A stretch of DNA of 15,918 nt from Streptomyces misionensis (lineage in GTDB: Bacteria > Actinomycetota > Actinomycetes > Streptomycetales > Streptomycetaceae): NCBI RefSeq assembly GCF_900104815.1, contig NZ_FNTD01000001.1:1-15918 (forward strand), given 5' to 3'. Each line of letters begins with the position of its first letter. Position 1 is the stretch's first letter. Positions 939-14,967 of this stretch are shown here, one piece after another. A program made the position numbers and the translations under genes. Under the pieces are notes generated by a model. The model was not told the origin of the DNA. It worked only from the letters and a program-made list of their open reading frames with translations, and ran no database searches.

Positions 939-2300
939 TTACGCAGCCCGCTCCCGCTCCTTCTTCCGACGATTAACAACGGTGGCGCTGCGTCCGGCGA
1001 ATTCGCCAACGCGGCGCTGGGTCCACCCCTGGGTCAGCCCGTAGTCAATGCGGGCGGTCACCTGGGCATCGGTGAGCAGCTCGGGCGCACGGCCGGGGGC
1101 GCAGTCGGCAGGGAGGCCGGGCAGATCCCAGTCCTTGACGGGCCCGGAGGGCGCCGCGGGCTGCGGGGCGGGCCGTTCCCAAATTTGGGAATCGGCGGTC
1201 GCCGCCGGGGCGGGCTTGTCCTCCTGGTCCTCGATGCGGGCGGTGACGCGGCCGGGGGCGGTGGCCTGCGCGGCGGCCACGGACAGCGTGGCGTCCTTGC
1301 GGGGCGCGGCCGGGGCCTGCGGGGTGGCGTGGAGCGCCTGAACGGCCTGTGCGGCCTTGTCGGCTGCTGTCGCGTCCAGGTCGGCCTTGGGCGCGACAGG
1401 GTGGCCGTTCGCGGCTTCAGTGCGGGGCTGCGGGGCCGGGACCCCCGTGCGAGGCGCGGACGCGACAGGCGCGGCAGGTACACGTACCGGTGCGGCCGGC
1501 GCGGGCGCGACCGGGTGCTGCGGGGCGGGGCTGGCACCTGACGCGGGAGCCGGGTGCGGCGTGGCGGGTGCGGGCCGGTGCAGGGTGAGGCGCTTCTCCT
1601 CCAGGTCGAGGCGCCGGGCCTGGATCTCGCGGGACGCGCGGGCGGCCTCGCGCTTCTCCTCCAACTCCGCCCGCTTCAGCTCGTCGTCCCATGCCTGCTT
1701 GCGCCGCTGCTCCTCTTCCTGGCGCTGCCGCTCGGCCTCGCGGTCGGCGTCCTCCTGTGCCTGGCGGCGCCGGCGCTCCTCCTCCTGCTCCTGGCGGGCG
1801 CGCTCGGCGTCGGCCGCGGCGGCTTCCTCCGCCTCGATGTCGTCCAGGCGCCGGGCGAGGCGGCGCCGGTAGACGGGGCCGGCCTCCGCGAGCAGCACGA
1901 GGATGCCCGGCGTGATCAGGTGCTGGAACACGCCCGTCCAGTCGTTCTTCTCGGCCGCGCTCCCGATGTTCAGGAACAGGCTCGACGCTCCGGTGAACAG
2001 GCGCAGCGCCGCCGCCCACGCTCCGCCGCCCACGTTGTGGCGGGAGGCGATCTCGTCCGCGCGCAGCGACCCGAGGAACGCCAAGTCCACCACCAGGGGC
2101 AGCACGAACGCGGTGTCCCGCCAGTCCGGGTCAAGGTGATCGGCCACGTACGGGGTCGCGTTCAGCATCGACCACACGATCATCCCCGCCGCCACGCCCC
2201 ACGTGACGAACGAGATGAACCGGTCCGCCACCGCCAGTCCCGCCCGCAGCCGCGCCGCCGAGCCGGGCGGCCCGGACTCCTCCAACTTCTTCCTGCCCAT
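939..2300 (-). CDS. DUF2637/Spd-like membrane protein with coiled coil and C-terminal HTH
   Basis: 453 residues from the ATG at 2300, chosen because AGGAAG lies just upstream; a longer TTG start at 2360 has no ribosome binding site. Four hydrophobic segments (about 27-47, 65-80, 93-113, 123-143) are followed by a long Glu/Arg/Gln-rich coiled coil (about 144-230), a Pro/Ala-rich linker (about 231-385) and a C-terminal HTH region (about 389-453) with the motif QGWTQRRVGEFAGR. The membrane part resembles DUF2637 or spread-type proteins of actinomycete plasmids and integrative elements. The predicted topology is a membrane-anchored protein with a cytoplasmic DNA-binding tail. The C-terminal domain is a paralogue of that of the gene at 14539-14967 (about 41 of 53 identical residues). 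It has its own terminator and probably its own promoter. Likely roles, by inference, are plasmid spread or tethering of DNA to the membrane. The gene is real; its function is uncertain. Confidence 0.85.
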   Translation of the reverse strand: MGRKKLEESGPPGSAARLRAGLAVADRFISFVTWGVAAGMIVWSMLNATPYVADHLDPDWRDTAFVLPLVVDLAFLGSLRADEIASRHNVGGGAWAAALRLFTGASSLFLNIGSAAEKNDWTGVFQHLITPGILVLLAEAGPVYRRRLARRLDDIEAEEAAAADAERARQEQEEERRRRQAQEDADREAERQRQEEEQRRKQAWDDELKRAELEEKREAARASREIQARRLDLEEKRLTLHRPAPATPHPAPASGASPAPQHPVAPAPAAPVRVPAAPVASAPRTGVPAPQPRTEAANGHPVAPKADLDATAADKAAQAVQALHATPQAPAAPRKDATLSVAAAQATAPGRVTARIEDQEDKPAPAATADSQIWERPAPQPAAPSGPVKDWDLPGLPADCAPGRAPELLTDAQVTARIDYGLTQGWTQRRVGEFAGRSATVVNRRKKERERAA

Positions 2301-2428
2301 GTCTTCCTGACTCTCCGTAGTGTGCGCGCACGGTGCGCGGAAACTGATCGCGCCGGACAAACCGGTACGCGTCGGACTGTGCGCGGGAGGTGTGCGCGGC
2401 GCGCACCCGCTCCCTTCTAAGGGCCGGG
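2301..2428 (-). promoter_or_regulatory. promoter region with TGTGCGCG octamers
   Basis: The gap between the upstream operon terminator and the start at 2300 contains TGTGCGCG at 2321-2328, 2378-2385 and 2391-2398. A fourth copy lies in the adjacent terminator loop (2450-2457). The copy at 2391 is part of an imperfect dyad with GCGCGCAC (2400-2407). This looks like an operator cluster for the membrane/HTH gene. No convincing -35/-10 pair is visible. Confidence 0.4.
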
Positions 2429-2471
2429 CGGGGTGCGGGCGTTGCGCACTGTGCGCGTCGCCCGCACCCCG
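2429..2471 (-). terminator. terminator of the sigma/HNH operon
   Basis: A 13-bp perfect stem (CGGGGTGCGGGCG at 2429-2441, its complement at 2459-2471) encloses a loop that can form a second stem (GCGCAC/GTGCGC). It lies 18 bp beyond the stop at 2489. It lacks a U-tract, as many actinomycete terminators do. Confidence 0.65.
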
Positions 2472-2488
2472 ACCACGGTCACGGCGGG

Positions 2489-2659
2489 TTACTTCTTCTT
2501 CGAGGCGCGGAACCCGATCCGCTTCACCGGCTGGTCCGCCGGCGCGGGCTTCGAGCGCGTGGTGCGCGGCGGCTGGCCCACCGCGCGGGGCTCACCGGCC
2601 TTGCGCGGCACGGTGACGTAGGGCGGGTACTCGACGCCGGGCTTCTTCTTCGCGAACAC
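2489..2659 (-). CDS. 56-residue basic protein, unknown function
   Basis: Small ORF with a GTG start at 2657-2659, preceded by AGGAAGGA at good spacing, and a TAA stop at 2489-2491. Nearly every third codon base is G or C, which strongly supports coding. The product is rich in Lys, Arg and Pro, begins MFAKKKPGVEYPPYVTVPRK and ends in a Lys-rich RASKKK tail. It has no membrane segment and no recognised domain. It is the last gene before the operon terminator, 91 bp after the HNH gene, so it is probably cotranscribed with the sigma-like genes. The composition suggests a nucleic-acid-binding or protein-binding peptide. No family is recognised. Confidence 0.7.
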   Translation of the reverse strand: MFAKKKPGVEYPPYVTVPRKAGEPRAVGQPPRTTRSKPAPADQPVKRIGFRASKKK

Positions 2660-2750
2660 GGGGACGTCCTTCCTGGGCCGGGCCGTGTGCCCGGCTCCCC
2701 GCCCGGCCCCGGCCGCCTGGTGGTGGCGGGCGGGGGCGGACAGGCAGCCG

Positions 2751-3050
2751 TCACACCGCGCGGGTGGGGACCAGGCCGGGGCGGAACTGGCCGGGCGCCG
2801 GGCGCAGCAGCGCCTGCGGAAGCTGGTCGGACTTGGCCTCGTTGCAGGGCTGGCAGGCGAGCACCAGGGCGGCCTGCGCCCATGTGTGGACCAGGGATCG
2901 CGGGATCAGGTGATCGACCGTGGCGCCCTCAAGTCCGGGCCCGAACGGCGTGGCGCAGTAGAAGCACTGCGCGCCGTCCCGGGCCGCGAGGCGCGCCTTC
3001 AACAGACGCCGACGCTTCGAGCACGGCTTGCGGTCGGGGTTGTTGCTCAC
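2751..3050 (-). CDS. HNH endonuclease
   Basis: 99 residues from a GTG start overlapping the preceding stop by 4 bp (GTGA), implying translational coupling. The HNH fold is clear: CFYC (Cys29, Cys32), TVDHLIP (Asp46-His47 catalytic), and ACQPCNEAKSDQ (Cys66, Cys69, Asn70). The two Cys pairs would bind structural zinc, and the Asp-His with Asn70 would form the beta-beta-alpha-metal active site. The N-terminus is strongly basic (KRRRLLKAR). The family cuts or nicks DNA, and small free-standing members are common in phages and plasmids. Its place behind two sigma-like genes is unusual. Possible roles are DNA processing of the plasmid, anti-competitor activity or homing; none can be chosen from sequence alone. 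Confidence 0.88.
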   Translation of the reverse strand: MSNNPDRKPCSKRRRLLKARLAARDGAQCFYCATPFGPGLEGATVDHLIPRSLVHTWAQAALVLACQPCNEAKSDQLPQALLRPAPGQFRPGLVPTRAV

Positions 3051-4036
3051 GACTCCACCCCCGCCACCAGCACGGCGCAGCCGGAGACCACCGAGAGCAC
3101 GCGTCCGCGCGGGACGCCCAGGCGCTCGGAGATCTGAGGGCCGGTCAACCCGTCGACCAAGTGCAGCAGCAGAGCCTGGCGCGGGAAGTCGTCCAGGCGC
3201 AGCAGCAGCTGCCGCTGCGCCCAGCTCACGCGGTGCAGCGCCGCGCGCTCCCAGTCCTCAAGTTCATGCATCGGCGTGCGCGGGCCCGACAACTCGGGGT
3301 TGTCGATCAGCAGCAGCAGCACCGCCCGGGCCACCAGCTTCTCCAGCTTGCCGACCGCCCCCGTCTCCACCAGCAGCTCACGCGCCCTGTCCACCGGCAC
3401 CGCGTAGGCCAGGGTCAGCAGCGCCTCGCGCTCCGCCTCCGGCAGCGCCGCCACCATCTGCGCCATCGGGCCCGTAAGCGCTCCGAGCTGGCAGCGCTCG
3501 GACAGCGTCTCCTCCAGCAGCGGACACAGCACGGCGCACGTCTGCTTGTCGTCCCAATCGACGGCCGTCTCGTACGAGGCGGACCGCTTGTAGTGCGCCA
3601 GGATCCGGTCCTTCACCCGCCGCCACAGCATCCACCGCGTCTCGTCAGCCGAGTACCGGCTCCCCGCGTCCGGCGCCAGCAAGTCCTTCGCACCCGTCCG
3701 CGCGATCTCCACCCACGCGTCCTGCGCGATCTCCTCCGCGAGGTGCACCACCACCCCGGCCGGGGTTCCGCGGTTCATCAGCTTGCGCCGCGCGTAGTGC
3801 ACCAGGCCCTCGCCGTACTCCGCGTACAGCTCGCCCAGTCGCACCGACGCCCTCGGCTCCAGCCGGACGTCCTCGCCCCGGCCCAACCGCCGGCCACCCG
3901 GCCCGTTCCCCCGGATCGCCTCACCCCGCAGCCTGCGCTGCGCCTTCAAGCTCAGCTGCTTCTCCGGCGCCTGCGCTGTCTGTCCTGACTGCCGCACTAC
4001 CTGCCGGACGGCCACCGCACCTACCTGCGCGCTCAT
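3047..4036 (-). CDS. sigma-70 (ECF-like) factor, second of a tandem pair
   Basis: 329 residues, ATG start at 4036 overlapping the upstream stop by 4 bp (ATGA). A region-2-like segment lies at about 67-155 (LGELYAEYGEGLVHYARRKL, EEIAQDAWVEIA, then an aromatic-rich RWMLWRRVKDRILAHYKRS). A first region-4-like part lies at about 192-245 (ALPEAEREALLTLAYAVP), and a second HTH at about 274-322 (DDFPRQALLLHLVDGLTGPQISERLGVPRGRV). ECF sigma factors normally have about 170-220 residues and one region 4, so this is long and has a duplicated C-terminal HTH. It may direct RNA polymerase to plasmid promoters, or may have become a dedicated DNA-binding protein. No cognate anti-sigma factor is visible. Confidence 0.8.
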   Translation of the reverse strand: MSAQVGAVAVRQVVRQSGQTAQAPEKQLSLKAQRRLRGEAIRGNGPGGRRLGRGEDVRLEPRASVRLGELYAEYGEGLVHYARRKLMNRGTPAGVVVHLAEEIAQDAWVEIARTGAKDLLAPDAGSRYSADETRWMLWRRVKDRILAHYKRSASYETAVDWDDKQTCAVLCPLLEETLSERCQLGALTGPMAQMVAALPEAEREALLTLAYAVPVDRARELLVETGAVGKLEKLVARAVLLLLIDNPELSGPRTPMHELEDWERAALHRVSWAQRQLLLRLDDFPRQALLLHLVDGLTGPQISERLGVPRGRVLSVVSGCAVLVAGVES

Positions 4037-5352
4037 GCCTGCACCGCCGCGTGCAGCCGGGCGCAGCCCTCACGCCACAGGGCGCGGATGTAGGAGTCGC
4101 TCTTGAGTCCGAGCCGGGCGGCGACCTCGGCCGTCGGCACGCCCTGCGCGCGCAGCGCCACCACGGCCCGGTGCAGCTCCGGCAGCCGGTCCGCCACCGC
4201 CTCCCAGCCCTCCGGCGGCTCCGACACGGCGGGCCGCTTCGGCAGCTCGGCGTCCCGCCCGGCGGCGCGCAGCGCCTCCACCAGGCGGCGCACCGACTGC
4301 GCGGTCACGTTCGAGACCGTGACTGGGCTCCGGCCGACCCGGGCCGCGATTTGCGAGTTCGTCAGCCCTTCGGCCCGCAGCCGCACGATCGCCCGCCAGA
4401 CCTCCGGCAGCACGTCCACGACCGTCTCCCACCCGTCCGGGAAGGGATCGCTCTTCACCGGCACGGCCACCTCGCCGCCCGACGCGACCGGCCGTAACTG
4501 CGCGATCGCCCGCTTCAGCCGCTTGGTGACCGCGCACTGCGACAGCTCCAGCCGGGCGCCGATGGCCCGGTAGGACATGGCCAGCTCGAACCGCAGGTGC
4601 ACGATCTCCCGGAGCTTCGGCTCCAGCAGTTCCAGCGCCTCCTGCCAATGCGCGGGCAGCTCCCCCGCCACGGGCTCCGCCGGCACCGCCGCGGGCGCCC
4701 GGTGCGCCGTCCGCTCCAGCGCCGCATCCGCCGAGTCGTCCCCGTCCGCGACCCGGACCAGGCGCTCGTCGCGGTTGCTCCTCAGCCGGAAGTGACGGGC
4801 GATCATCCACTTCGCCCGACCCGCGAGGATCCCGAACGCGTCCTGCGGCTCCACCTCGCGCAGCAGCTCCAGACCGCCCGGCCGCGACACGCCCAGCCAG
4901 ACCTCCTGCGCCAGGTCCTCCGCCAGAGGCCCGTCACCGAACCGGTCCAGCCGCAGCCACACGTAGCGCACCAGCCGCTTCGCGTGCAGCGCGAACAACT
5001 CCCCGACCAGCACCGCGTCCTGCGCCGACAGCGGCTCATCGGCCACCGCCCGCAGGGAAACCCGCACCGGCTCGGTGTACGACGACGTCAGCAACGCGTT
5101 CTCCGGCACCCCCGCCGTCACCGCCGGCCGCACCCGGTCCCGCTCCGCCCGCGACCGCTCCCCCGAACGATCCCGAACCCGAACCCGCTCCTGCGGCTCC
5201 GGCTCCGGCTCGAAACCCCGGGCGTCGTCCTCCTGCTCCTGGCGCTCGATCTCCTCCGCCAGCCCAGCGCTGACCGCTACGTCAGCCCGCTCCCCCACAT
5301 CCGCGCGTCCCGCTACCTGCGGGATCACCGGCCGCTCAGCGACAATCGACAT
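4033..5352 (-). CDS. sigma-70 (ECF-like) factor with three region-4-like HTH units
   Basis: 439 residues from the ATG at 5352, which has GAGGG about 9 nt upstream. An in-frame extension to 5541 would translate through two hairpins and has no ribosome binding site. After a charged, Glu/Arg-rich N-terminus, region 2 lies at about 114-192 (ELFALHAKRLVRYVWLRL, AEDLAQEVWLGV, GRAKWMIARHFRLR). Three HTH units follow: about 237-290 (LEPKLREIVHLRFELAMSYRAIG), 305-362 (PDGWETV, NSQIAARVGRSPVTVSNV) and 380-434 (PEGWEAV, TAEVAARLGLKS). Units two and three are clearly repeats of each other. The gene heads an operon with a second sigma-like factor, an HNH nuclease and a basic peptide. The repeated HTHs suggest multivalent DNA binding; transcription initiation is the family role, but activity is unproven. 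Confidence 0.82.
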   Translation of the reverse strand: MSIVAERPVIPQVAGRADVGERADVAVSAGLAEEIERQEQEDDARGFEPEPEPQERVRVRDRSGERSRAERDRVRPAVTAGVPENALLTSSYTEPVRVSLRAVADEPLSAQDAVLVGELFALHAKRLVRYVWLRLDRFGDGPLAEDLAQEVWLGVSRPGGLELLREVEPQDAFGILAGRAKWMIARHFRLRSNRDERLVRVADGDDSADAALERTAHRAPAAVPAEPVAGELPAHWQEALELLEPKLREIVHLRFELAMSYRAIGARLELSQCAVTKRLKRAIAQLRPVASGGEVAVPVKSDPFPDGWETVVDVLPEVWRAIVRLRAEGLTNSQIAARVGRSPVTVSNVTAQSVRRLVEALRAAGRDAELPKRPAVSEPPEGWEAVADRLPELHRAVVALRAQGVPTAEVAARLGLKSDSYIRALWREGCARLHAAVQA

Positions 5353-5463
5353 ACGTCGGCCCTCACACCTAGTCCGTGGATCGGTCCGACAGCGGTCGAG
5401 GCGCTCCAACGCCTTGACCACCGCCCAAAGGCCCCTGACGTGCATCAACGCCGAGGGCCACCA

Positions 5464-5511
5464 GCCCGGCCGGTGCTCCAACACCGGCCGGGCACCTGCG
5501 TTTATGCAGGT
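5464..5511 (-). promoter_or_regulatory. double hairpin in the 5' leader of the sigma operon
   Basis: Two stems stand back to back in the minus-strand leader: ACCTGC/GCAGGT (5494-5499 with 5506-5511), then a 12-bp perfect stem GCCCGGCCGGTG (5464-5475) with its complement at 5482-5493 and a 6-nt loop. They lie about 110-160 nt upstream of the start at 5352. There is no U-tract, so this could be an attenuator, an mRNA stabiliser or a pausing element. Confidence 0.55.
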
Positions 5512-5539
5512 CAGCGCGTCGTAAGCGACAGGCCGAAGC

Positions 5540-5653
5540 AAGGTACGAATCGACTGCCGCTAGGTACTTCGTGTACCTTCCCGACGCCATGAAGGTACAT
5601 GTAGCACCGCCATGGGTCAAGCGTTGTACCTTGAGCGAAGATTGATGTACCTT
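5540..5653. promoter_or_regulatory. operator cluster of GTACCTT/AAGGTAC half-sites
   Basis: Half-sites are AAGGTAC 5540-5546, AGGTAC 5562-5567, GTACCTT 5573-5579, AAGGTAC 5592-5598, GTACCTT 5626-5632 and GTACCTT 5647-5653. The pair at 5562-5579 forms a dyad AGGTAC-N5-GTACCT. They lie in the divergent region between the leftward sigma operon and the rightward GntR gene, so the natural reading is autoregulated binding by the GntR protein that also controls the sigma operon. Short repeated operators of this kind are typical of GntR/HutC regulators of actinomycete plasmids (KorSA and TraR types). Confidence 0.7.
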
Positions 5654-5690
5654 CGTGGGGCAGGACCGACCCGGCAAACCTGGAGGAGTC

Positions 5691-6428
5691 ATGGCATACA
5701 AGTCGCCAGGGAAGGGGTACGCCGACGTGGCGAATCACTTCCGAGCGCTGATCAAGAGCGGGGAGCTCGCTCCAGGCGACGCGCTTCCCTCTGTGGCGGA
5801 GATCCGAGATCAGTTCGACGTGGCGGCGAAGACCGTCAGCCGCGCGTTGGGCGTGCTCAAGGGCGAGGGCCTGGTGACGTCGCGGGGCTCGCTCGGGACT
5901 GTGGTGGCCAAGTCTCCGCTCGTGATCACGGGAGCGGACCGTCTCGACCGCATGGCCAGGAACGGGCTCCGATACGCACCCGGGGAAACTTCCTCGGGGC
6001 ACAAGGTGATGCGCAGGTCGGTCCACGACGCGGACGTGTGCAGGGCGCTGGACCTGGAGCCCGGAGACGAGGCCGTCATCCGCATCCGCGTCTTCCGCCA
6101 GGACGGCCGGCCTACCTCGGTCGGGGTCTCCGTCTACCCGCCGCACACGGTGAGCGAGGTGCCCGAGCTGGCGGACGACGCCCGAATGACCCGGCAGTTC
6201 GACGCTCTGTACACCGAGCGGACCGGCCGCGAGGTAGTAAAGGGACAGCGCACCGCGCACGCTCGGCAGGCGTCACAAGACGAGTTGGATGCACTGGAGA
6301 TTGACGCTCCTCCGCATACCGCAGTTGCCGTCCTAGTGACCACGGTCGTCTTCCATGACGATGAACACGCCCTGGGTTACTGGGAAGACGTGTACGCGCC
6401 CGGAGCGCATGTACCAATTTCCAGTTAA
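5691..6428 (+). CDS. GntR/HutC-family transcriptional repressor with UTRA domain
   Basis: 245 residues from the ATG at 5691, which has an excellent GGAGGAG 4 nt upstream; an in-frame GTG at 5655 lacks one. The N-terminal winged HTH (about 1-74) is typical: YADVANHFRALIKSGELAPG, LPSVAEIRDQFDVAAKTVSR, LKGEGLVTSRGSLGTVV. The C-terminal part (about 95-243) has the alternating strand/helix pattern of a UTRA effector domain (AVIRIRVFRQDGRPTSVGVSVYP). In actinomycete mobile elements such proteins repress transfer or replication genes. Six candidate operators lie directly upstream, and one more GTACCTT lies in the parA upstream region (13505-13511). A small ligand could release it; which one cannot be told. 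Confidence 0.9.
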   Translation: MAYKSPGKGYADVANHFRALIKSGELAPGDALPSVAEIRDQFDVAAKTVSRALGVLKGEGLVTSRGSLGTVVAKSPLVITGADRLDRMARNGLRYAPGETSSGHKVMRRSVHDADVCRALDLEPGDEAVIRIRVFRQDGRPTSVGVSVYPPHTVSEVPELADDARMTRQFDALYTERTGREVVKGQRTAHARQASQDELDALEIDAPPHTAVAVLVTTVVFHDDEHALGYWEDVYAPGAHVPISS

Positions 6429-6753
6429 CAGAAATCGCGTAAATCTAAACGCAAGGAATTTCGCTCCCTCTGTTTCAGCGGGATCACTCCTTGCAAGCAG
6501 GTTCCGCGTTTCTCTGGGTCGCTAAGCAGAGGATCCACATCGGCTTATGCGGTCGCCCAGTAAACCACCAAAGGCACAACGCCAGTAGAGAAAAGATCAA
6601 CAGGCTCGATCCTCTGTCCACAGAGGGAGGACGGCAGGATGGGCCGCACAACGCAACAGGCCCCGCTTAGGGGCGGGGCCTGACGCTCCACTCCCGGGAG
6701 GCGACCCGGGGGCGGAGGAAGCACTACGACTCCCTGCAAGGAGGTGCGCTCCC
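6429..6753. other. AT-richer non-coding region upstream of rep1, candidate origin/control region
   Basis: No gene is seen in these 325 bp, which have lower GC than their surroundings. A nested stem is visible at 6451-6494 (GCAAGGA/TCCTTGC, inner CGCT/AGCG). A 9-bp inverted pair CAGAGGATC (6527-6535) and GATCCTCTG (6608-6616) is present. CCTCTGT-CC-ACAGAGG (6611-6626) forms a near palindrome. CTGTCCACA (6614-6622) fits the Streptomyces DnaA box pattern (TTGTCCACA, one change); GGATCCACA (6531-6539) is a weaker relative. The region ends with a hairpin (6658-6681), a CTCCCGGGAG palindrome (6691-6700) and a perfect AAGGAGGTG ribosome binding site (6738-6746). It may combine replication control with the rep leader. 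Confidence 0.5.
6658..6681 (+). terminator. terminator- or attenuator-like hairpin before rep1
   Basis: A 9-bp perfect stem AGGCCCCGC/GCGGGGCCT has a 6-nt loop and no following U-tract. It could end the GntR transcript or attenuate transcription into rep1; position alone does not decide. Confidence 0.5.
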
Positions 6754-6831
6754 TTGAGCGTACGACGCACGGCCCGCACAGCACCACATGGACAGGCTCC
6801 GACCCTGGTCACACCGGGGGTTGCCCAGTGA
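6754..6831 (+). CDS. 25-residue leader ORF coupled to rep1
   Basis: Short ORF with a TTG start at 6754, about 9 nt after the strongest ribosome binding site in the window (AAGGAGGTG, 6738-6746). It encodes MSVRRTARTAPHGQAPTLVT plus five residues and stops at TGA 6829-6831. That stop overlaps the GTG start of rep1 as GTGA. The rep1 GTG itself has only a weak GGGGG upstream, so ribosomes terminating on the leader probably start rep1. Leader-peptide coupling is a known means of copy-number control in plasmids. The peptide is basic; whether it works as a peptide or only as a translated leader is unknown. Confidence 0.5.
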   Translation: MSVRRTARTAPHGQAPTLVTPGVAQ

Positions 6832-7736
6832 TCCAGCACATGAACCTGGTGTTCCAGGCGGAGGGACTGAGTGTGGGTGAGGGCGCGTTCCTGATGGCGT
6901 GCTGCAACCACACCGACGCCAAGGGATACGTGATCGCGCACATGCAGCAGATCGCGGACGAGGCGCACATGTCCCTCAGGTCCGCGCGGGACCAGCGGGC
7001 CAAGCTGGAGAAGCGCCGGCTACTCAAGGCCGGGGAGCGCTTCAGCCCGAAGAACGGGGCGCAGCTCGCCAACCTGTTCCGGGTCAACCTGGACTTGCTG
7101 GCCAGCATGAAGCGTGCGCGCACCGACTATGGGCCGTCCCTCGTGGAGGAACTGACCTTCAACGAGGCGCCTGAGGAAAACCCCAGCTCAGACCCCCCGG
7201 CGAAATCTGCCGCCCCCCCGTCGCCCCCCCCGGCAGATCTCGCACCCCCCCCGGCAGATCTCGCACCCCCCCCGGCAGATCTCGCAGGGGCAGGGGGTGC
7301 GAAATCTGCCCCCCTTCTCCTTCCTTCCTCTTCTCCCTCTTCTCCCGCCGGGGTCCCGACAGCCACTGTTGTCACACCGGCCCCGGAGCCTCAGGGGGGA
7401 GAGAGAGAGGCGGCTGCGCCGGAGGTGTCGGGAGCTGATGTGGTCGTGGACGCCTACGTCCGGGCGCTGGGTCGTCCGCTGGTGAACGGTTCGCGGGAGC
7501 GGCTGCGGAGCCAGGCCGTGCAGCTGCTTGCGGCGGGCTACCCGCTGGCGTGGCTGGCAGCGCGGGCGGCGGAGATGCCGGCGAATGGCTGGTTGGACCT
7601 GGTGAAGCACGCGGAGGCGTCGCGGGTGCCGCTGCCGGGGCAGGCCGGTCCTGCGGGCGCTGATGGTGCGGGTGGCGCGACGCCGGAGCAGGTGGCGGCG
7701 CTGCGGGCGCAGGTCATGAAGGGGGCGATGATGTGA
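6828..7736 (+). CDS. Rep1-like replication initiator (HTH protein) with iterons inside the gene
   Basis: 302 residues if translation starts at GTG 6828; ATG 6840 is an alternative. The N-terminal 90 residues form a winged-HTH region (LSVGEGAFLMACCNHTD, IAHMQQIADEAHMSLRSARD, LEKRRLLKAGERF) like replication initiators of actinomycete plasmids and phages. The middle is a Pro-rich, low-complexity linker with PPADLA repeats (about 123-155), whose DNA is the iteron array. A C-terminal helical part (about 203-302) follows (VNGSRERLRSQAVQLLAAGY). The stop overlaps the helicase start as GTGA. An HTH protein plus a helicase with iterons in the first gene matches the pSLA2 rep1/rep2 arrangement (established for that plasmid; inferred here). 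It should bind the iterons and load the helicase. Confidence 0.8.
   Translation: MIQHMNLVFQAEGLSVGEGAFLMACCNHTDAKGYVIAHMQQIADEAHMSLRSARDQRAKLEKRRLLKAGERFSPKNGAQLANLFRVNLDLLASMKRARTDYGPSLVEELTFNEAPEENPSSDPPAKSAAPPSPPPADLAPPPADLAPPPADLAGAGGAKSAPLLLPSSSPSSPAGVPTATVVTPAPEPQGGEREAAAPEVSGADVVVDAYVRALGRPLVNGSRERLRSQAVQLLAAGYPLAWLAARAAEMPANGWLDLVKHAEASRVPLPGQAGPAGADGAGGATPEQVAALRAQVMKGAMM
7200..7310. repeat. iteron array, candidate replication origin
   Basis: Five copies of the 12-mer GCGARATCTGCC. Two are in plus orientation (7200-7211 and 7299-7310) and flank three inverted copies GGCAGATCTCGC at 7232-7243, 7253-7264 and 7274-7285, spaced exactly 21 bp apart and separated by C-runs. The 21-bp period is two helical turns. 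The array lies in the linker-coding part of rep1 and at the middle of the molecule, as for centrally located origins of linear plasmids. Confidence 0.8.
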
Positions 7737-9112
7737 GCGGCTTCGAGGACCAGGACGAGCGGCAGGCGCGGGAGCTGGAGGCGGCCGAGGCGGTGCTGGG
7801 TGCGCTGCTGACGCCGGGAGATGCGGCGGATGCGGCGTTCATGGAGCTGGTGGAGGTGGTGGAGGCCGCCGACTTCCGCGAGCCCCGCCACCAGCTGCTG
7901 TTCGAGGTGGCGTGCGCGATGCGCACCCGGCGCGAGCCGTGTGACCCGATCACGATGACGGCGGAGCTGACCGGGCGCGGGCTGCTGGAGAAGGCTGGCG
8001 GCCGGGCCTACCTGCACCACCTGGTGCAGGCGGTGCCGACCGTCTACGCGGCGGTCGAGTACGCGAACGTCGTGCGGGACGCGGCGCTGCTGCGGCGGGT
8101 GGAGTCCGCCGGCATTGCCGCGGTGGCGGCCGCGCGCTCCGGCGCCGGGGAGGCGGCCGATATCGCCGAGCGGGCGGTCGAGGAGATGCGTGCGGCCCGG
8201 GACCGGGGACTCGCCGCGACGGACGCGCCGCTGCTGGACTTGGGCACGTTCCTGGCCGAGACGCCTGCGGAGCCGGATTGGGTGCTGCCCGGGGTGCTGG
8301 CCCGCTGGGACCGGCTGATCGTCACGGGTGGCGAGGGCGGCGGCAAGTCGCTGCTGCTGCGGCAGATGCTGCTGCGCGCGGCGGCCGGGCTGCACCCGTG
8401 GAAGAAGGCCCGCATCGCGCCGGTGCGCTGCATGCTCATCGACGCCGAGAACAGCCGGGACCAGGCGCGGCCGTGGATCGAGCAGATGGCCCGGGCCGCC
8501 GAAGCCGAGGGCGCGCCGATCGATCCGCGGCTGGTCACGCTGGAGTTCCTGAACGAGCGCGGCCTCGACCTGGCGCGGCCGGCGGACCGGGCCTACCTCG
8601 CCCGCCGGATCGAGCGCGCGAAGCCGGACCTGATCGTGATCGGCCCGCTGTACAAGCTCACGCTGACCGGCAACCCGAACGACGAGGAGACCGCCCGGGT
8701 GCTCATGTCCGGGCTGGAGATGCTGCGCACGGTCTCCGGCGGCGCGGCGATGCTCATCGAGGCGCACTCCCCGCATGCCGCGCCCGGCGCCAAGCGCCGC
8801 GACCTGCGCCCGATCGGCTCCAGCCTGTGGCTGCGCTGGCCGGAGTACGGCTTCGGCCTGTCCCCGGCGGCCGAACTCGGCGCCGAGGAACTGCGGCTGG
8901 TGGACTGGGTGCCGTGGCGCGGGGCCCGGTCGGAGCGGACGTGGCCCGAGCAGTTCTGCGGCGGCCACCCGTGGCCGTGGGTGGCCATCCAGCACGCGGG
9001 TAACGAGCCGATCCCGGTCGTCACGCTGACCGCTGAGGAAGCCGAGACGGCAGGCCTGATCCCGGAGCAAGGCTTCTGGGACGACCAGCAGATCGGCTAC
9101 GCAGCCCAGTAG
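7733..9112 (+). CDS. Rep2-like replicative helicase (DnaB N-domain plus RecA-like ATPase)
   Basis: 459 residues, GTG start overlapping the rep1 stop by 4 bp. Residues about 8-125 match the DnaB N-terminal domain pattern (EAAEAVLGALLTPGDAADAA, VEAADFREPRHQLLFEV, LLEKAGGRAYLHHLVQAVPT). The RecA-fold ATPase follows, with Walker A GGEGGGKS at 199-206, a DAENSRDQ segment, and Walker B-like LIVIGPLY at about 301-308. The tail (WVPWRGARSERTWPEQF) is of the AAA_25/RepA helicase type. It should unwind DNA at the iterons together with the Rep1-like protein, as described for pSLA2 Rep2. A strong terminator follows. Confidence 0.9.
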   Translation: MSGFEDQDERQARELEAAEAVLGALLTPGDAADAAFMELVEVVEAADFREPRHQLLFEVACAMRTRREPCDPITMTAELTGRGLLEKAGGRAYLHHLVQAVPTVYAAVEYANVVRDAALLRRVESAGIAAVAAARSGAGEAADIAERAVEEMRAARDRGLAATDAPLLDLGTFLAETPAEPDWVLPGVLARWDRLIVTGGEGGGKSLLLRQMLLRAAAGLHPWKKARIAPVRCMLIDAENSRDQARPWIEQMARAAEAEGAPIDPRLVTLEFLNERGLDLARPADRAYLARRIERAKPDLIVIGPLYKLTLTGNPNDEETARVLMSGLEMLRTVSGGAAMLIEAHSPHAAPGAKRRDLRPIGSSLWLRWPEYGFGLSPAAELGAEELRLVDWVPWRGARSERTWPEQFCGGHPWPWVAIQHAGNEPIPVVTLTAEEAETAGLIPEQGFWDDQQIGYAAQ

Positions 9113-9138
9113 CGGGCTACACGCCGTCTCCCGTATTT

Positions 9139-9764: not shown

Positions 9765-9906
9765 CGGCGGAACCGATCCTGACGTGCGCGGGCCAATGAA
9801 TCCAATCGGCGGCGCACCCCCCGGGGTCTGGGGCTCTGGCGGGCGTTTCCGGGCCCGGGGCCGGGGGGTTGCTGATTGGCTTGTCTGGCTTGTCATGCCT
9901 GGTGGC

Positions 9907-9960
9907 GTCCTGGAGCGCGTCTTGGCGCCGGCACATCAGCGCCAAGACGCGCTCCAGGAC
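9907..9960. repeat. 22-bp perfect inverted repeat with 10-nt loop
   Basis: The arms 9907-9928 and 9939-9960 are perfectly complementary over 22 bp around the loop CGGCACATCA (9929-9938). This is among the longest perfect non-terminal hairpins in the window. It has no flanking T-run and no gene ends beside it on either strand, which argues against a plain terminator. Candidates are a single-strand origin, a nicking or transfer site, or a structured RNA. Confidence 0.85.
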
Positions 9961-10588
9961 ACCGGCACGTCGCGGACAGGCCGCGCCAGGTGCCGGACAG
10001 GACACTGCCAGTTGGCGCCAGGTCCTGGTTGTCATCACCGTCATCATCACCGGGCCCGAACGGCCTCGCGGGCGCGAGAACTACGCGTACGCGTACGCGT
10101 GGTTGGCCGCCGCGGCGACCGTCACCGCGCGGGAAGTCCGGGCCTGTCCGCAACGTCCGCGCGCCCGGCCGCGGCTGCCCGCGCGCCGGCGCCGGGGTGC
10201 GCCCGCCCGGCTGCGCCCGCCTGTCCGGGTACGCGGGCGTCCGCGCGCCCCTGTCCGCCCGTACGAGAGGCGTTGGGCGGGCTCGGCGGCCGGGAGTCCG
10301 GCCCGGTGCCGGAAGGCGCTCCAGGGGGCCGTGGAAGGCCGTGGCGGGCCTCGCGCGCGTTAAAGCGTGCACACGTGCGCGGGCACACGCGTGCACACGA
10401 GACGGGACGGACGATCGGGACCGACCGGGGAAGCCGGGCCGGGCACGGCGAGGGCGGGCTGCGGAGCGCCGCCGACGGCTCATCGAGGGGCCCAACGCGT
10501 GCCGCGCGTGACGCGGGTCGGGCGTGCCGCCTGCGCGCGATTACGCGCACGTACGCGTGAGGACCCGGGCCGGTCCCGGCGGCGGTGG

Positions 10589-10804
10589 TCACCGCACGGT
10601 GTCACCGTGCCCGTCACCGCCCGGCGCGGCGGGGCCGGCACCGAGCATCCGGCGCCCGGCCGTCGGGCGCGGCTTCGGCTCGGCGGCCGGGACGGCTTCG
10701 AGGCGTTCGGCGGCGAGCTGCGCGCGCGGCGCCGGTTCGGTGTCTCGCGTACGGGACAGGTCGGCGCGGTCGGGTCCGGTGCCCAGCGGGCGGCGGTCGG
10801 TCAT
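10589..10804 (-). CDS. possible 71-residue ORF, weak support
   Basis: ATG at 10804, TGA at 10589-10591. The product is basic and Pro/Ala/Arg-rich (MTDRRPLGTGPDRADLSRTR...), probably disordered, with no recognised domain. Third positions are about 87% GC, but first positions are as high, so the codon signal is weak. Upstream, a strong purine tract (GGAGGAAGGAAGGAG) lies in the 3' arm of a long stem, and a 4-codon frame (ATG at 10814) ends in TGA overlapping this ATG. A following frame (start 10592) overlaps its stop by 4 bp. It could be a real, structurally regulated small gene or a composition artefact. Confidence 0.25.
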   Translation of the reverse strand: MTDRRPLGTGPDRADLSRTRDTEPAPRAQLAAERLEAVPAAEPKPRPTAGRRMLGAGPAAPGGDGHGDTVR

Positions 10805-10822
10805 CGCCCGATCATCGCGCGC

Positions 10823-10928
10823 GGTGGTTACTCCTTCCTTCCTCCCGACCGGGGAGCGGCCGGTGAGACGGCTCATGAGGGCCGGTCGCGGCACTCTCGG
10901 CCGGGTCGGGAAGTAGTAAGTAACCACC
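10823..10928 (-). promoter_or_regulatory. long stem-loop enclosing a Shine-Dalgarno-like purine tract
   Basis: GGTGGTTACT (10823-10832) pairs with AGTAACCACC (10919-10928), and TCCCGACC (10843-10850) with GGTCGGGA (10904-10911). Together they give a two-part stem of about 106 nt. In the minus-strand RNA the 3' arm contains the purine-rich tract GGAGGAAGGAAGGAG, the only strong ribosome-binding-like sequence of the surroundings. The layout resembles a translational control element for the ORF that starts at 10804. Confidence 0.45.
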
Positions 10929-11012
10929 CTGTGTGACGCGTCGGAGTTCTTCTTCACCGCCCCGGCCGGTTGCTCCGGGCGGCTCCAAGGCGCGCGCGTG
11001 TCGCGCGCGCAC

Positions 11013-11067
11013 GAGGCGGTGAACTTCCGGACTGGCCGCGCTGCCCGCGTCCGGGACTGACCGCCTC
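11013..11067 (+). terminator. nested hairpin followed by a T-run
   Basis: GAGGCGGT/ACCGCCTC (11013-11020 with 11060-11067) encloses CCGGAC/GTCCGG (11027-11032 with 11049-11054), and GCGATTTTCC follows. It is terminator-like on the plus strand, but no plus-strand gene ends just before it. Confidence 0.45.
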
Positions 11068-11274
11068 GCGATTTTCCTCGCGCCGGACCGTCACATGTGG
11101 CTGCCTGCGCCCCATAACTCCTTCGTAGGGCAGGGCTTGCGGGGCTTGCCCCCGCTCCCCGCACTCTGGCGCCGCCCTGTCCGGGGGCCTGCCCGGGACG
11201 TAAGGGCTGGGGAGTGTCCACGCTCCGCCATCCATCCGCTGCACCACCGTGTGCACTGACCCTCTGGGGGACTC

Positions 11275-11463
11275 GTGTCTGTCGTCACGATGCTCGTGCT
11301 GTTCGTCGCGCTGCTCCTGGTCGTCGTCGGCCTGGCCGTGGTCGTCGGTCTGGCCGTGGTCGTTCACCGCCGTCCGGCACTCGGGGCGCCGGTCGGTGTC
11401 GCCATCGCCGCCGCCGGCGTCCTCGTGGGGGGTGTGGTCGGCATCGTCCAGGCCGTGTCGTGA
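11275..11463 (+). CDS. 62-residue two-helix membrane protein (Spd-like)
   Basis: GTG start at 11275 with GGGGG 4 nt upstream; TGA stop at 11461-11463. Third codon positions are almost all G or C. The product is two hydrophobic helices (about 5-31 and 37-60) joined by a short basic turn (HRRPAL), with repeated VVVGLAVVV. Small hydrophobic proteins of this kind (SpdD and similar) are linked to plasmid spread in Streptomyces mycelium, but no tra gene is nearby, so this is a likeness, not an assignment. The gene stands alone, convergent with the par operon, and the 12-bp repeat array and a hairpin (11755-11793) lie between them. Confidence 0.7.
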   Translation: MSVVTMLVLFVALLLVVVGLAVVVGLAVVVHRRPALGAPVGVAIAAAGVLVGGVVGIVQAVS

Positions 11464-11614
11464 CCGGGGCGGCCCGGCCCAGTCGGGCGCCAGGACCCGG
11501 CGGAACCGGGCCGGTACCGCCCGGGGGAACGCCCCAGGGAAGTAGTCGGCGCGCCGAACCGTTCGGAATCGCGCGGCTGAGCTGGCGTTTTGCCGGGCTC
11601 CGGGGCGACGCCCG

Positions 11615-11698
11615 GTGCGACCCGGGGCGCGACCTAGGGCAGGACCCAGGGCGCGACTTAGGACGCGACCCAGGACGCGACCCAGGACGCGACCTGCG
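11615..11698. repeat. seven tandem 12-bp repeats next to the par operon
   Basis: Units of 12 bp run from 11615 to 11698 with consensus RCGCGACCCAGG. Examples are GCGCGACCTAGG (11627), GCGCGACTTAGG (11651) and two identical ACGCGACCCAGG (11663 and 11675); the outer copies are degenerate. The array is non-coding and lies about 120 bp beyond the end of the parB-like gene. Tandem repeats beside a parA/parB operon are typical centromere sites, so this is the best parS candidate. The GACCC core also recalls TraB recognition repeats, but no TraB is encoded. Confidence 0.85.
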
Positions 11699-11754
11699 AG
11701 TCAGTCCTGTCCGGCAGGAACTCGACGCCGGCGGCGAAGTGGTGCGGAGTGAGA

Positions 11755-11793
11755 GCCCCCCGACCATCCCCGTGATGGGGCCGGTCAGGGGGC
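11755..11793. terminator. bidirectional terminator-like hairpin between spd-like gene and par operon
   Basis: GCCCCC and GACC on the 5' side pair with GGTC and GGGGGC on the 3' side, each interrupted by one base, around an inner CCCC/GGGG stem. It lies 27 bp beyond the parB-like stop codon (11820-11822) and between convergent transcripts. Confidence 0.6.
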
Positions 11794-11819
11794 GATCAAG
11801 AGGGCCCGGGTCGCTGCCG

Positions 11820-12686
11820 CTAGTCGTCCGTCGGCGTTCCGCCTGGCGTCGGCCGGGTGAGGAGATCCTGTTCCAGGCGGGCGAGGTCGCTCTGCGCCTG
11901 GCGGCACAGCGCCAGGGCCCGTTGCGGGTCACTGGCGGCGAGCCGCTGAAGCTTCTTCAGCCGCAGGACATCGGACGGCTCCAGCTCCGGCTGGGGCTTC
12001 ACCTCCTCCAGCGGCTCGGGCTCCGGGGCGATGGCGTAGCCGCACTCGACTGCTGCCGCGCGCAGCCCGCGCTCGGTCAAGTCCCCGGCGGCTTCCGCCT
12101 TGCGCCAGCACCGGCGGACCGCCTCGTCGCCGTGCTCGCGCTGGACGGCGACGAGCGGGCGCAGCGGCTGCTCCTTGAGTTGGCGGCGGGTGATGGGCGA
12201 GAGGGCTCGTACGACCGGCGCCACTCGGATGATCTTGTTCATGTAGTCGCCGCTGCGCCCGTTGAGCGCGCGGCCCCACTTGTCGAACGTCGAGTAGCCG
12301 GCGACCCGGTACAGCTCTTCGTCGCGCACGATCCGGTAGGGCTCGCCCACCCACAGCAGGTATTGCTGGGTGATCCGCTCGGTGGCCAGCTCGGTACGCC
12401 GGTCCGCGTCCTGGATAGCCCCCGTGCAGTACGCCAGCCGCTCGGCGGGATCGGTGCTCGTCGGCGGCGAGAACAGGGTGACAGCCGGGAGATCCGGAAG
12501 ACTATTAGTCTTTTCGTCTTCCTGACGAGATCCGTTGACCTGCGAAGACTCCGCCTGCGGCACGGAAGACCGCGGAGACGGCGCGGAAGACTGCGGCCGG
12601 ACCGTCTGCCGACGCGGCTCGACCTCCGTGCCCACCGCCGCGTTCGCCAGCTGCTCGGCGATGCTCGTACGGGTCCCCGCCATCAC
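11820..12686 (-). CDS. ParB-like partner of ParA (DNA-binding protein)
   Basis: 288 residues from GTG 12686; ATG 12683 gives one residue less. Both starts overlap the parA stop (GTGATG), so the two are translationally coupled. The first ~80 residues are Ser/Pro/Gln-rich and disordered, with heptads of the type xSSxPxx. The core (about 85-225) is helical, with TGAIQDADRRTELATERITQ, LYRVAGYSTFDKWGRALNGR and SGDYMNKIIRVAPVVRAL, consistent with an HTH DNA-binding domain. A second helical tail (about 240-285) is rich in Leu, Arg and Glu. The canonical ParB nuclease-like N-domain is absent, so it is ParB by context, not by sequence family. A 45-bp relic of a second copy lies at 14354-14397. It should bind a centromere, perhaps the 12-bp repeats or the repeats in its own gene. 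Confidence 0.75.
   Translation of the reverse strand: MMAGTRTSIAEQLANAAVGTEVEPRRQTVRPQSSAPSPRSSVPQAESSQVNGSRQEDEKTNSLPDLPAVTLFSPPTSTDPAERLAYCTGAIQDADRRTELATERITQQYLLWVGEPYRIVRDEELYRVAGYSTFDKWGRALNGRSGDYMNKIIRVAPVVRALSPITRRQLKEQPLRPLVAVQREHGDEAVRRCWRKAEAAGDLTERGLRAAAVECGYAIAPEPEPLEEVKPQPELEPSDVLRLKKLQRLAASDPQRALALCRQAQSDLARLEQDLLTRPTPGGTPTDD
12544..12591. repeat. 21-bp-phased GAAGAC repeats inside the parB-like gene
   Basis: GAAGAC occurs at 12544, 12565 and 12586 with an exact 21-bp period. A further GGAAGAC (12496-12502) and inverted GTCTTCC (12516-12522) lie nearby. They encode the Ser-Ser heptads of the disordered N-terminus. Phasing at two helical turns would suit cooperative protein binding, but simple expansion of a linker-coding repeat explains it too. 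Confidence 0.65.
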
Positions 12687-13426
12687 GCCTGCACCGCCTC
12701 GGCGTCCGCGCCGGCCTGGACGGGCAGACGCGTCTCCGCGCCCCGCAGGCCGTGCTCGAGCGCGAACCGGTAGAAGTCTTCGCGTGCCTGGAGCTCCACC
12801 CGGTTGTTGTTGTACTGGGTGACCACCTTGGTGGCGTTGGTGTGCACGCGGTACCGGCGGATCACCGTCTGTGCCACCGGATAGCCGTGCTTCTCACACC
12901 AGCCGCGGGTGCCCTCCACGTAGGCGATGCCTTCGGCCGGCGCCCAGTTGTTGATGACCACCTGGAACGGGACACCGAGCGGCTTGAGCACCCACTCGAT
13001 CGTCTGCCACGTCGCCTCGTAGCAGTCCACCTCGGTCATCATCGGCACGATGACGTCGTCCGCCTGGTCCAGCAACGCCCGCAGGATCCGCCCGTACTTG
13101 TCCTCCCCCAGCGGATCCCTGCCGCTGGTCGGATCGATCTCGGCCCAGCCCGGGGTGTCCACGAAGACGTGCGCGTACGGCAGCCGCTTCAGCAGCGCGA
13201 TGTTCTCGACGTCGTCCGAGATGTCGAGGATGTCGAACGGCTGCTCAGCCAGCCGCGCCGCCCGCCACAGCGCCGTCCCCTGCGGGTCCGCCGACGCCAC
13301 CGCCACATGCGGCTGCCCGTCCGGCCGCGGCCCCCGCACATCCGCGCAGACCGCCCCCATGTTCAGGCTGATCAACGACTTGCCGACACCGCCCTTGCGG
13401 TTCATCACGACATGGATCTTCGCCAC
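12683..13426 (-). CDS. parA: ParA-family partition ATPase
   Basis: 247 residues from GTG 13426, chosen because GGAGG lies 8 nt upstream and the Walker motif then starts at residue 11; an ATG at 13459 would add 11 residues but lacks a good site. The deviant Walker A KGGVGKS is at residues 11-17 (MAKIHVVMNRKGGVGKS), a DPQG A'-motif at about 52-55, and Walker B HVFVDTPGW at about 91-99. Then come VIVPMMTEVDCYEATWQTIE and VVINNWAPAEG, all typical of ParA/MinD ATPases. It lacks an N-terminal HTH, so it is of the short ParA type. It should form ATP-dependent filaments or gradients on the nucleoid that move plasmid-bound partner complexes. It is first in an operon with the ParB-like gene. Confidence 0.93.
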   Translation of the reverse strand: MAKIHVVMNRKGGVGKSLISLNMGAVCADVRGPRPDGQPHVAVASADPQGTALWRAARLAEQPFDILDISDDVENIALLKRLPYAHVFVDTPGWAEIDPTSGRDPLGEDKYGRILRALLDQADDVIVPMMTEVDCYEATWQTIEWVLKPLGVPFQVVINNWAPAEGIAYVEGTRGWCEKHGYPVAQTVIRRYRVHTNATKVVTQYNNNRVELQAREDFYRFALEHGLRGAETRLPVQAGADAEAVQA

Positions 13427-13680
13427 GCCCAGGACCTCCGTTCGCTTCACCGCCCCCATGAGCGGCTACTTCGGGTCCGGACAGTCTGTCAGGCAGCCCC
13501 GTCTGTACCTTGTATGGCCATCTGATCTCCTACATCCCGTCCACCCGGACGGCCCCGAGGCGCTCCCCCGCGCCTAGTCAGCGGGCCTACATATCGGCAT
13601 CAACGCCATCTGCCTGTAGGTCAGGATGTAGGGAACCGAGTACGATCGGGGTGCGAGTGTAGACACAGCGTCTACGTAAT
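13427..13680 (-). promoter_or_regulatory. parA upstream control region
   Basis: Several operator-like elements are packed here: the odd dyad GACAG-T-CTGTC (13480-13490) and one GTACCTT (13505-13511) identical to the half-sites before the GntR gene. ATGTAGG-type repeats occur as CCTACATCC (13529-13537), CCTACAT (13586-13592) and inverted GGATGTAGG (13624-13632). The dyad GTAGAC-N5-GTCTAC lies at 13659-13675. Autoregulation by the Par proteins and control by the plasmid GntR protein are both plausible. TACGAT (13641-13646) is a possible plus-strand -10 element. A firm promoter cannot be placed. Confidence 0.55.
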
Positions 13681-13724
13681 GAAGGGCCCCTTCACCGGGC
13701 TGCCACCCAGGTCAGAGGCCCTTC
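13681..13724 (+). repeat. hairpin GAAGGGCC/GGCCCTTC
   Basis: An 8-bp stem with a 28-nt loop (arms 13681-13688 and 13717-13724) lies just upstream of a strong plus-strand terminator. With that terminator it could form the body of a short RNA transcribed away from parA. Confidence 0.5.
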
Positions 13725-13743
13725 TTCGCGATACAGCAGGAGC

Positions 13744-13778
13744 CCCGGTCGCGCACCAGTCGACCGGGTTTCTTGTTT
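13744..13778 (+). terminator. intrinsic terminator on the plus strand with T-tract
   Basis: CCCGGTCG (13744-13751) pairs with CGACCGGG (13761-13768), and TTTCTTGTTT follows directly. This is the most canonical rho-independent terminator of the window. No plus-strand protein gene ends before it, so it may end a small RNA that starts in the parA upstream region. Confidence 0.75.
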
Positions 13779-13814
13779 CCCCGATCATTGCGACCTCGCT
13801 CACGCCGCTCCCTG

Positions 13815-13970
13815 CTAGGAGCAGCGCTGAATCACGATCTTGGCGAGTACCGCCAGCACCGGTGACCAGTCGAGCAGGATCTGCCAGAGCCTCTGCTGCC
13901 GTTCCCGGCGCCGCTCGGCGGCTTCCTTCTCGTCTTCGTCGTCCGATGAAGCGGGTGTCTCACCAATCAT
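13815..13970 (-). CDS. 51-residue charged protein with C-terminal hydrophobic segment
   Basis: ATG at 13970 with a perfect GGAGG 5 nt upstream; TAG stop at 13815-13817. The product has an acidic stretch (SSDDEDEKEAAE), a basic helix (RRRERQQR) and a hydrophobic C-terminal segment (WQILLDWSPVLAVLAKIVI). It could be a small membrane-associated protein. The frame is open much further upstream, and GTG in-frame starts exist, but this start has the best ribosome binding site. Codon bias is weaker than in the core genes and the surrounding 800 bp is less GC-rich, suggesting a separate origin. No family recognised. Confidence 0.5.
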   Translation of the reverse strand: MIGETPASSDDEDEKEAAERRRERQQRLWQILLDWSPVLAVLAKIVIQRCS

Positions 13971-14266
13971 CTGGTCCTCCGCGATGTCCAGTAGGTGCCC
14001 GATTGCCGGATGGCTGACCGGGCCTCCACTACGAGGGACCTCTCGACCATCCTCGTGGTGGAGCTCGAGCGGACCTCTGCGGAAGACCAGGAGCAAGCAT
14101 AAGGCGCACTCCTTGGCGGACACCCCCCCAACAACGTCAACTAAGCCTGTGAGCTGCGCTTTTGGTGCCAAAGTAATGTGCGCGCATTGACAAACCGTTA
14201 TGTGGCCTGCGTCACAAAGCTCGAGAGGCTGAGGGCTGAGCGGAAGTAACTCCCCAGAGAGCCCTT

Positions 14267-14553
14267 GTCGTTGACCGTGCGTGGCCGAATCCGTGGCGGC
14301 GTCGCCCTCACCGCCGCCGTCGCCCTCGGCGCCGCGACCCGCGGTCGGCCCGATACGCCGGTCCGCGTCCTGGATGGCGCTCGTGCGGTACACCAGCCAG
14401 GGCGGGAAGGAGCGGCGGGCACGGGGACGCCTCGGGGGTCGGGCGCCCGGATCCTTTTCTCGCGCGGGTCGGCGGGGCCGCGCGCGGCCGGGGCCAGACA
14501 CCCCGGCACCAGGACACGGGTCTGGTCGTTCACCGTGCATGGCCGACCCCGTG
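14267..14553 (+). repeat. direct repeat flanking the relic, at the start of the right HTH gene
   Basis: Bases 14267-14295 and 14525-14553 match at 25 of 29 positions. The second copy contains the ATG start of the right HTH gene, the first a GTG in the same frame. The offset is 258 bp, exactly 86 codons. The parB relic lies between them. This looks like duplication of the gene start with intervening foreign sequence, or a recombination scar. Confidence 0.65.
14354..14397 (-). pseudogene. relic of a parB-like gene fragment
   Basis: This stretch matches 12395-12438 inside the parB-like gene. The first 22 bases are identical and the rest differ at about five positions. On the minus strand it would read VYRTSAIQDADRR, against AYCTGAIQDADRR in the intact protein. 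The match fades on both sides and no surrounding frame continues the protein, so it is a short remnant of a second copy or of gene conversion. Confidence 0.7.
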
Positions 14554-14967
14554 ATCGTCACCGTGCAGTACACCCCGCCCGGCGCCGCCGACAGCCTCCG
14601 CCTGGAGCTGCATGCCGAACCCGGTGCCCGCCTCACCCTCCAGCTCGGCGCTCGCACCACGCCGGCCTCCGTCCCCACCCAGCCCCAGCCCACCGACTGG
14701 GAAGACCTGTCCGGCCGCCCCAAGCCCCCCGCTTCTCCCGACTGGGCAGACCTGTCGGGCATTCGAGACTGGGATCTGCCCGGCCTCCCGGCCGAGTGCG
14801 CGCCCGGGCGCAGGCCTGAGCTGCTCACCGACTCGCAGGTCACCGCCCGCCTCCGCTACGGCTACGAGCAGGGATGGACGCAACGGCGCATCGGAGCCTT
14901 CGCGGGCCGCGCTGCGGGCACCGTGCACAAGTACGTCGAGCGTTTCCGGGCAGAAAGCAAAAAGTGA
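14539..14967 (+). CDS. HTH protein of the right end, paralogous to the left membrane/HTH protein
   Basis: 142 residues from ATG 14539. A longer frame from GTG 14281 would cover a repeat and a relic, so it was not chosen; the ATG has only a weak ribosome binding site. The N-terminus (MADPVIVTVQYTPP, LRLELHAEPGARLTLQL) is beta-rich, followed by a linker with DWEDLSG and DWADLSG repeats. Then comes DWDLPGLPAECAPGRRPELL and a C-terminal HTH with QGWTQRRIGAFAGRAAGTVHKYV (residues about 111-133). The last 65 residues are a close paralogue of the end of the protein at 939-2300, but no membrane part is present. The gene reads outward and stops 50 bp from the TIR, as its paralogue stops 37 bp from the left TIR. 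It probably binds DNA; the target is unknown. Confidence 0.75.
   Translation: MADPVIVTVQYTPPGAADSLRLELHAEPGARLTLQLGARTTPASVPTQPQPTDWEDLSGRPKPPASPDWADLSGIRDWDLPGLPAECAPGRRPELLTDSQVTARLRYGYEQGWTQRRIGAFAGRAAGTVHKYVERFRAESKK

Follow-up and report, generated by a model that had tools for sequence, protein, structure and literature searches.

Helix-turn-helix modules in the two end genes of a small linear Streptomyces plasmid: a probable case of terminal copying

The window analysed here (15,918 nucleotides from Streptomyces misionensis, positions 1-15918 of NZ_FNTD01000001.1) is an entire linear contig of its genome (C1, 15.9 kb) and is a small linear Streptomyces plasmid of the pSCL1 type. Just inside its terminal inverted repeats (TIRs) lie two outward-reading genes with open frames, a left end gene (939..2300, minus strand; 453 residues) and a right end gene (14539..14967, plus strand; 142 residues), whose products end in paralogous copies of a helix-turn-helix (HTH) module (left copy 942..1139, minus strand; right copy 14764..14964, plus strand). 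Our overall account, which we consider likely, is that copying of a terminus spread the tail of the left end gene to the other end and fused it there to another gene, and that selection retained the fusion. The sequence-only reading of this DNA had offered two explanations for the shared module, namely that an older, longer TIR had decayed or that a DNA-binding domain was kept at both ends because it acts on them. The former is the better supported of the two, by homology between the arms that reaches into the genes in two plasmids and by TIR edges that fall at the gene in four relatives.

Homology between the arms

BLASTP aligned the two end proteins over their last ~65 residues (E = 3e-29), with 41 of 53 residues identical from DWDLPGLP on (counted by eye on the alignment), and the N-terminal parts are considered unrelated because every other stretch had an E of at least 1. 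At the DNA level, an inverted repeat of 83% identity (1039-1133 and 14767-14861) ends in 23 identical bases (1111-1133 and 14767-14789). The TIR is perfect for 901 bp (1..901 and 15018..15918, the first mismatch between the arms being at 902; a repeat listing gives 919 bp at a rounded 100%), so that the stop codons lie 37 bp (left) and 50 bp (right) from it. The sequence-only reading had claimed the paralogous C-termini, the unrelated N-termini, the 23 shared bases and a distance of 37-50 bp between stop and TIR, and was borne out in each. The likeness is not confined to the module: positions 902-1038 are also homologous to their right-arm counterpart, which they matched with a higher score than 500 of 500 unrelated segments.

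In the window, the alignment of the arms starts at the terminus, crosses the TIR and reaches into both genes (1-1133 versus 1-1152 at 92.7%), and the arm alignment together with the null-segment scoring delimits what we read as the decayed inner section of the older, longer TIR (902..1133 in the left arm, 14767..15017 in the right arm). The linear plasmid unnamed4 of S. althioticus NBC_01679 (NZ_CP109219, 11,429 bp; L009) carries orthologues of both end genes, each with the module. Its arms align at 86% (1-795 versus 225-1036) and are more decayed, in a record that appears ~224 bp short at one end; its positions 351-603 likewise outscored 500 of 500 null segments. The edge of the TIR varies in position relative to the stop of the left gene. 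It was found 100 bp outside the stop in pSCL1, 12 bp outside in the draft contig of rh34 (where the repeat has 81-88% identity), 17 bp inside in NBC_01650 (NZ_CP109261), and 40 bp inside, stop codon counted, in AC550, whose draft contig ends within the TIR. AC550 lacks the right gene, and in its other arm the TIR adjoins sequence matching window positions 14399-14492, which lie immediately upstream of that gene in the window. Passages of PMC7205883 propose that the TIRs of Streptomyces chromosomes grow by break-induced replication as one arm is recopied, and a TIR edge that shifts upon such recopying is what the plasmids resemble; the chromosome TIRs described there measure hundreds of kb, whereas that of the window measures ~1 kb on a small plasmid and the product is an in-frame fusion gene.

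From these alignments we infer both the copying mechanism and its left-to-right direction. The event would have taken place in a common ancestor of the window plasmid and the S. althioticus plasmid, where terminal copying, either through break-induced replication or through telomere exchange, would have put ~1.15 kb of left-end sequence on the right end, with the plasmid's own left end or a sister plasmid as the source. With its breakpoint at the start of the HTH module, the copy would have joined the module in frame to the end of a different N-terminal domain. Repeated copying afterwards would have held the outer ~0.9 kb identical, and the inner part, by then coding in two different genes, would have diverged and been retained by selection.

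Age of the duplication and selection on the copies

In the protein tree (98/97) as in the DNA tree (99/97), the right module of the window and that of NZ_CP109219 group as a single clade, which indicates that the duplication predates the split of the two plasmids; the left modules of the pair are 97% identical. Within the window the outer 0.9 kb of the arms is identical despite this older duplication. Between the window and NZ_CP109219, the ratio of non-synonymous to synonymous substitution rates (dN/dS) was 0.03 for the left module and 0.29 for the right gene overall (0.34 for the N-terminal part and 0.24-0.27 for the module), with a Fisher p value of ~0.001, on rounded counts, for the right module and for the N-terminal part alike. 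Both copies are thus under purifying selection, and the right gene is in use rather than debris.

Three observations weigh against the copying account. First, of the two patterns expected from terminal copying, arm homology was found from the end through the duplicated segment, with its weakest piece in the last coding stretch of the S. althioticus plasmid (601-660 of L009), which aligns weakly and was equalled by 3 of 500 null segments. Second, the other pattern, a duplicate closest to the opposite arm of the same replicon, was not seen in the protein tree, which places the right modules with the left module of NBC_01650 (NZ_CP109261) at 93/92, a support below the tool's threshold for a firm branch; the DNA tree leaves that grouping open. 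Simple copying of the plasmid's own left end therefore does not fit best, and a donor plasmid or a later replacement of the left gene would be needed; a sister plasmid as the donor would fit. Third, the fused right gene is carried by two plasmids only.

Distribution of the module and its position at ends

The module is rare and was found in Streptomyces only. Nine intact module genes were counted, two each in the window and NZ_CP109219 and one each in NZ_CP109261, pSCL1, AC550, rh34 and Streptomyces sp. col6 (a second pSCL1 record, NZ_CP045848, was left out of the count). All nine stop 58-1,017 bp from the end of their record or contig and read outward. The plasmid records with the module are linear in six of six cases and no circular plasmid record matched, so that the even spread over circular plasmids and chromosomes that would have spoken against an end-linked system did not appear. 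Enrichment at ends, which the sequence-only reading had suggested looking for, was indeed seen among the intact copies; on chromosome-sized contigs the module occurs as fragments. In the col6 gene the module follows an N-terminus of a third kind, and next to this gene are palindromes that, judged by eye, resemble telomeres; the ends of the col6 contig have no repeat in common. The last 300 bases of this contig (L053) appear, again by eye, to fold back around these palindromes, and it seems as if a read had run through the telomere.

Such a distribution would also be expected if the module were a DNA-binding domain acting on the ends and kept at both of them by selection, with the left membrane protein and the soluble right protein binding subterminal sites and thereby, for instance, tethering the ends or bringing them into line when the plasmid segregates or is transferred. 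In addition to the outward position of all nine genes and the linearity of the records, the three kinds of N-terminus and the purifying selection on both copies agree with an end-acting role, which is possible. However, the nine genes do not represent nine independent events, most of the left ones being orthologues that share a backbone, and several of the records are drafts or stop short of the true ends. The module stands at both ends in two of the six related plasmids, the right gene being absent from the other four, and no target site for it was found. Moreover, the recognition-helix regions of the left and right copies differ (ATVVNRRKKERE versus AGTVHKYVERFR), suggesting that the two modules have different sites. 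Overall, we regard selection for action at the ends as an unlikely reason for the shared module. We have similar doubts about a broader version, in which the module would be a portable end-recognition domain, carried by a membrane protein at one end and by soluble partners at the other, that binds subterminal DNA and draws the plasmid ends to the membrane or septum so that the plasmid can segregate or be transferred end first; terminal copying would in that case spread the module and fuse it to new partners because it is encoded beside the ends.

An alternative explanation is that the module is simply the DNA-binding tail of a gene for plasmid spread or regulation whose outermost place is accidental, that its position reflects inherited gene order, and that the right copy arose as an ordinary duplicate of a regulator, with no function at the ends. 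Gene order is indeed kept among pSCL1-type plasmids, and the N-terminal 170 residues of the left protein have matches in 21 plasmid records, among them the circular pJV1, pSN22 and NZ_CP109526, inside which these relatives lie, so that this protein family is not tied to ends. Nevertheless, chance position leaves unexplained both the homology that continues from the TIR and the col6 gene, which combines another N-terminus with a place near a telomere-like contig end, and we consider it rather improbable. Terminal copying with retention of the fusion remains our preferred account.

Apart from the intact genes, NZ_CP109168 holds an unannotated module frame that reads outward ~2 kb from the record end, a distance that refers to the record and not to a known true end, as no TIR was seen and the last gene reaches the record end. 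Five more copies are fragmentary or broken. Four of them point toward the nearer end, namely those in a 351-kb linear plasmid (NZ_CP108530; 42 kb from its end), a 12.3-Mb contig (G128; L048 9373-9736; 40.5 kb from its start), an 8.6-Mb contig (G698; L068 3268-3480; 3.3 kb from its start) and a 54-kb draft contig of S. geranii (15.5 kb from the nearer end). The fifth, in a 15.9-kb draft contig of S. olivaceoviridis and 2.3 kb from the nearer end, points away from that end. The G128 fragment retains ~140 bp that correspond to window sequence outside the gene, ~100 bp of which are TIR, and the first and last 10 kb of the G698 contig have no repeat in common. Telomere exchange between plasmids and chromosomes is inferred in part of PMC7205883, and the G128 and G698 fragments on their chromosome-sized contigs are possible footprints of such plasmid-chromosome exchange of ends. 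In S. geranii (L022), the broken left gene (8950-10200) lies ~7 kb from the surroundings of its stop codon (17333-17451), as if something had been inserted near the end of the gene.

The end proteins and their plasmid

The left protein, by its translation, is a predicted SpdB/DUF2637-like membrane protein with a C-terminal HTH, and its N-terminal part is distantly similar to proteins of pJV1 (38%) and pSN22 (35%), whose genes we take to be spd genes of the SpdB/SpdB2 kind known from Streptomyces conjugative plasmids (their records say hypothetical). Pfam DUF2637 (PF10935) was matched at an E of at most 1 by four of the six members of the left-protein alignment. The pSCL1 protein scored above the cut-off (6.6e-07), the window protein and the pJV1 and pSN22 relatives gave no match, and tblastn with the N-terminal part of the left protein reached DUF2637 genes at 2e-10 to 2e-18. 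The structural model (mean predicted local distance difference test score 57) shows low-confidence N-terminal helices, a long helix at residues 122-239 that is confident from ~150, then disorder in a Pro/Ala-rich stretch and, at the C-terminus, a three-helix domain; in the right protein, the modelled helices of the module span residues 98-110, 115-122 and 126-141. This fold is of a common three-helix type, and the module presumably binds DNA. SpdB2 of pSVH1, as described in part of PMC4170104, likewise joins a membrane part to a DNA-binding part, and the left protein may play an SpdB2-like part in plasmid spread or stability. Unlike in SpdB systems, however, no TraB/FtsK-like transfer gene was found, next to the left gene or elsewhere, among the 25 open reading frames (ORFs) of the window scanned in Pfam (taken from 82 mostly overlapping ORFs of at least 80 residues and a coding-bias list; part of the 25 were also scanned in NCBIfam and PHROGs), and the C-terminal HTH module is special to this group.

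In the right protein, a short N-terminal domain (VIVTVQYTPPG...) precedes the module. Two plasmid records proved to carry this domain, NZ_CP109219 and NZ_CP108445, the latter with another C-terminus, and it was also found in 6 of 392 Streptomyces genomes (E of at most 0.01, its own genome included; three matches weak). We expect the right protein to be a soluble DNA-binding partner or regulator. That it is instead a plasmid-borne terminal protein of the Tpg kind, priming the patching of the ends, is very improbable. It is admittedly a small protein with a predicted HTH whose gene adjoins the telomere, and part of PMC3572947 describes an HTH in Tpg and deoxynucleotidylation of the S. lividans protein at T114, a Thr/Ser site. 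Judged by length and family models, however, the case is poor, with 142 residues against ~185 for Tpg, no Pfam or NCBIfam match that passes a curated cut-off and a weak PHROG match, and the right gene is absent from four of the six related plasmids. Near the start of the right gene there are partial direct repeats (12384-12439 with 14343-14398, and, by eye, 14266-14297 with 14525-14555), which suggests that the right arm could be a mosaic of fragments.

Among 72,556 plasmid records, the two top megablast matches to the window were NZ_CP109219 (S. althioticus, 11.4 kb) and NZ_CP109261 (13 kb), both small linear Streptomyces plasmids, and pSCL1 of S. clavuligerus (NZ_CP086230, 11,696 bp, linear) groups with it by gene order and blastn. 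Like pSCL1, the window is a linear replicon with TIRs and has an outward DUF2637-like gene with the module beside the left TIR (its protein misses the Pfam model, yet aligns with the pSCL1 protein, which passes it), a sigma-like gene, a GntR regulator and two replication genes in the centre. These are a Rep1-like initiator (6744..7736, plus strand; weak PHROG match, E = 6e-05), within which lie three 21-bp iteron-like repeats (7224-7286), and the DnaB-like helicase Rep2 (7733..9112, plus strand; Pfam DnaB, E = 9e-23), whose region (7681-9107) has 71% DNA identity to pSCL1. The window differs from pSCL1 in its right-end copy of the module, and from the S. althioticus plasmid in its greater length and less diverged arms. 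A ParA-like gene (12683-13459) and an overlapping gene, together occupying 11820-13459, read leftward in the window; in its relatives, pSCL1 and NZ_CP109219 among them, the ParA-like gene reads rightward. A stretch of ~0.9 kb (10139-11041), for which the coding-bias list holds no ORF, is 80% identical to NZ_CP109219, and pieces of it are common to AC550, NZ_CP109261 and pSCL1.

The window starts with TTCGCACGGG and pSCL1 with CCCGCGGAGCGGG, an end that we take to be the archetypal telomere; the CCCGCGG of pSCL1 is absent from the window start (1-30). Window base 24 aligns with about base 75 of pSCL1, via the S. althioticus plasmid, so that the contig may lack ~50 terminal bases, or its telomere may be of a different type. 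Both TIRs of the window carry 7.4 copies of an 8-bp tandem repeat, GCGTGTGG (211-268 and 15651-15708), and an array of the same 8-mer lies internally in pSCL1, on the opposite strand (8369-8404). Since TraB recognises 8-bp repeats, according to part of PMC4170104, a transfer-site role for the TIR repeats is worth considering.

The window plasmid offers a small, readable example of gene birth through telomere copying, in which the TIR edge would have entered a gene and the resulting in-frame fusion would have been retained. The module may also serve as a tracer of possible end exchange, as fragments of it occur in a large linear plasmid and close to the start of each of two chromosome-sized Streptomyces contigs. 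If it binds ends, it would provide a handle on how the ends of small linear plasmids without a recognised transfer gene are positioned and how such plasmids spread.

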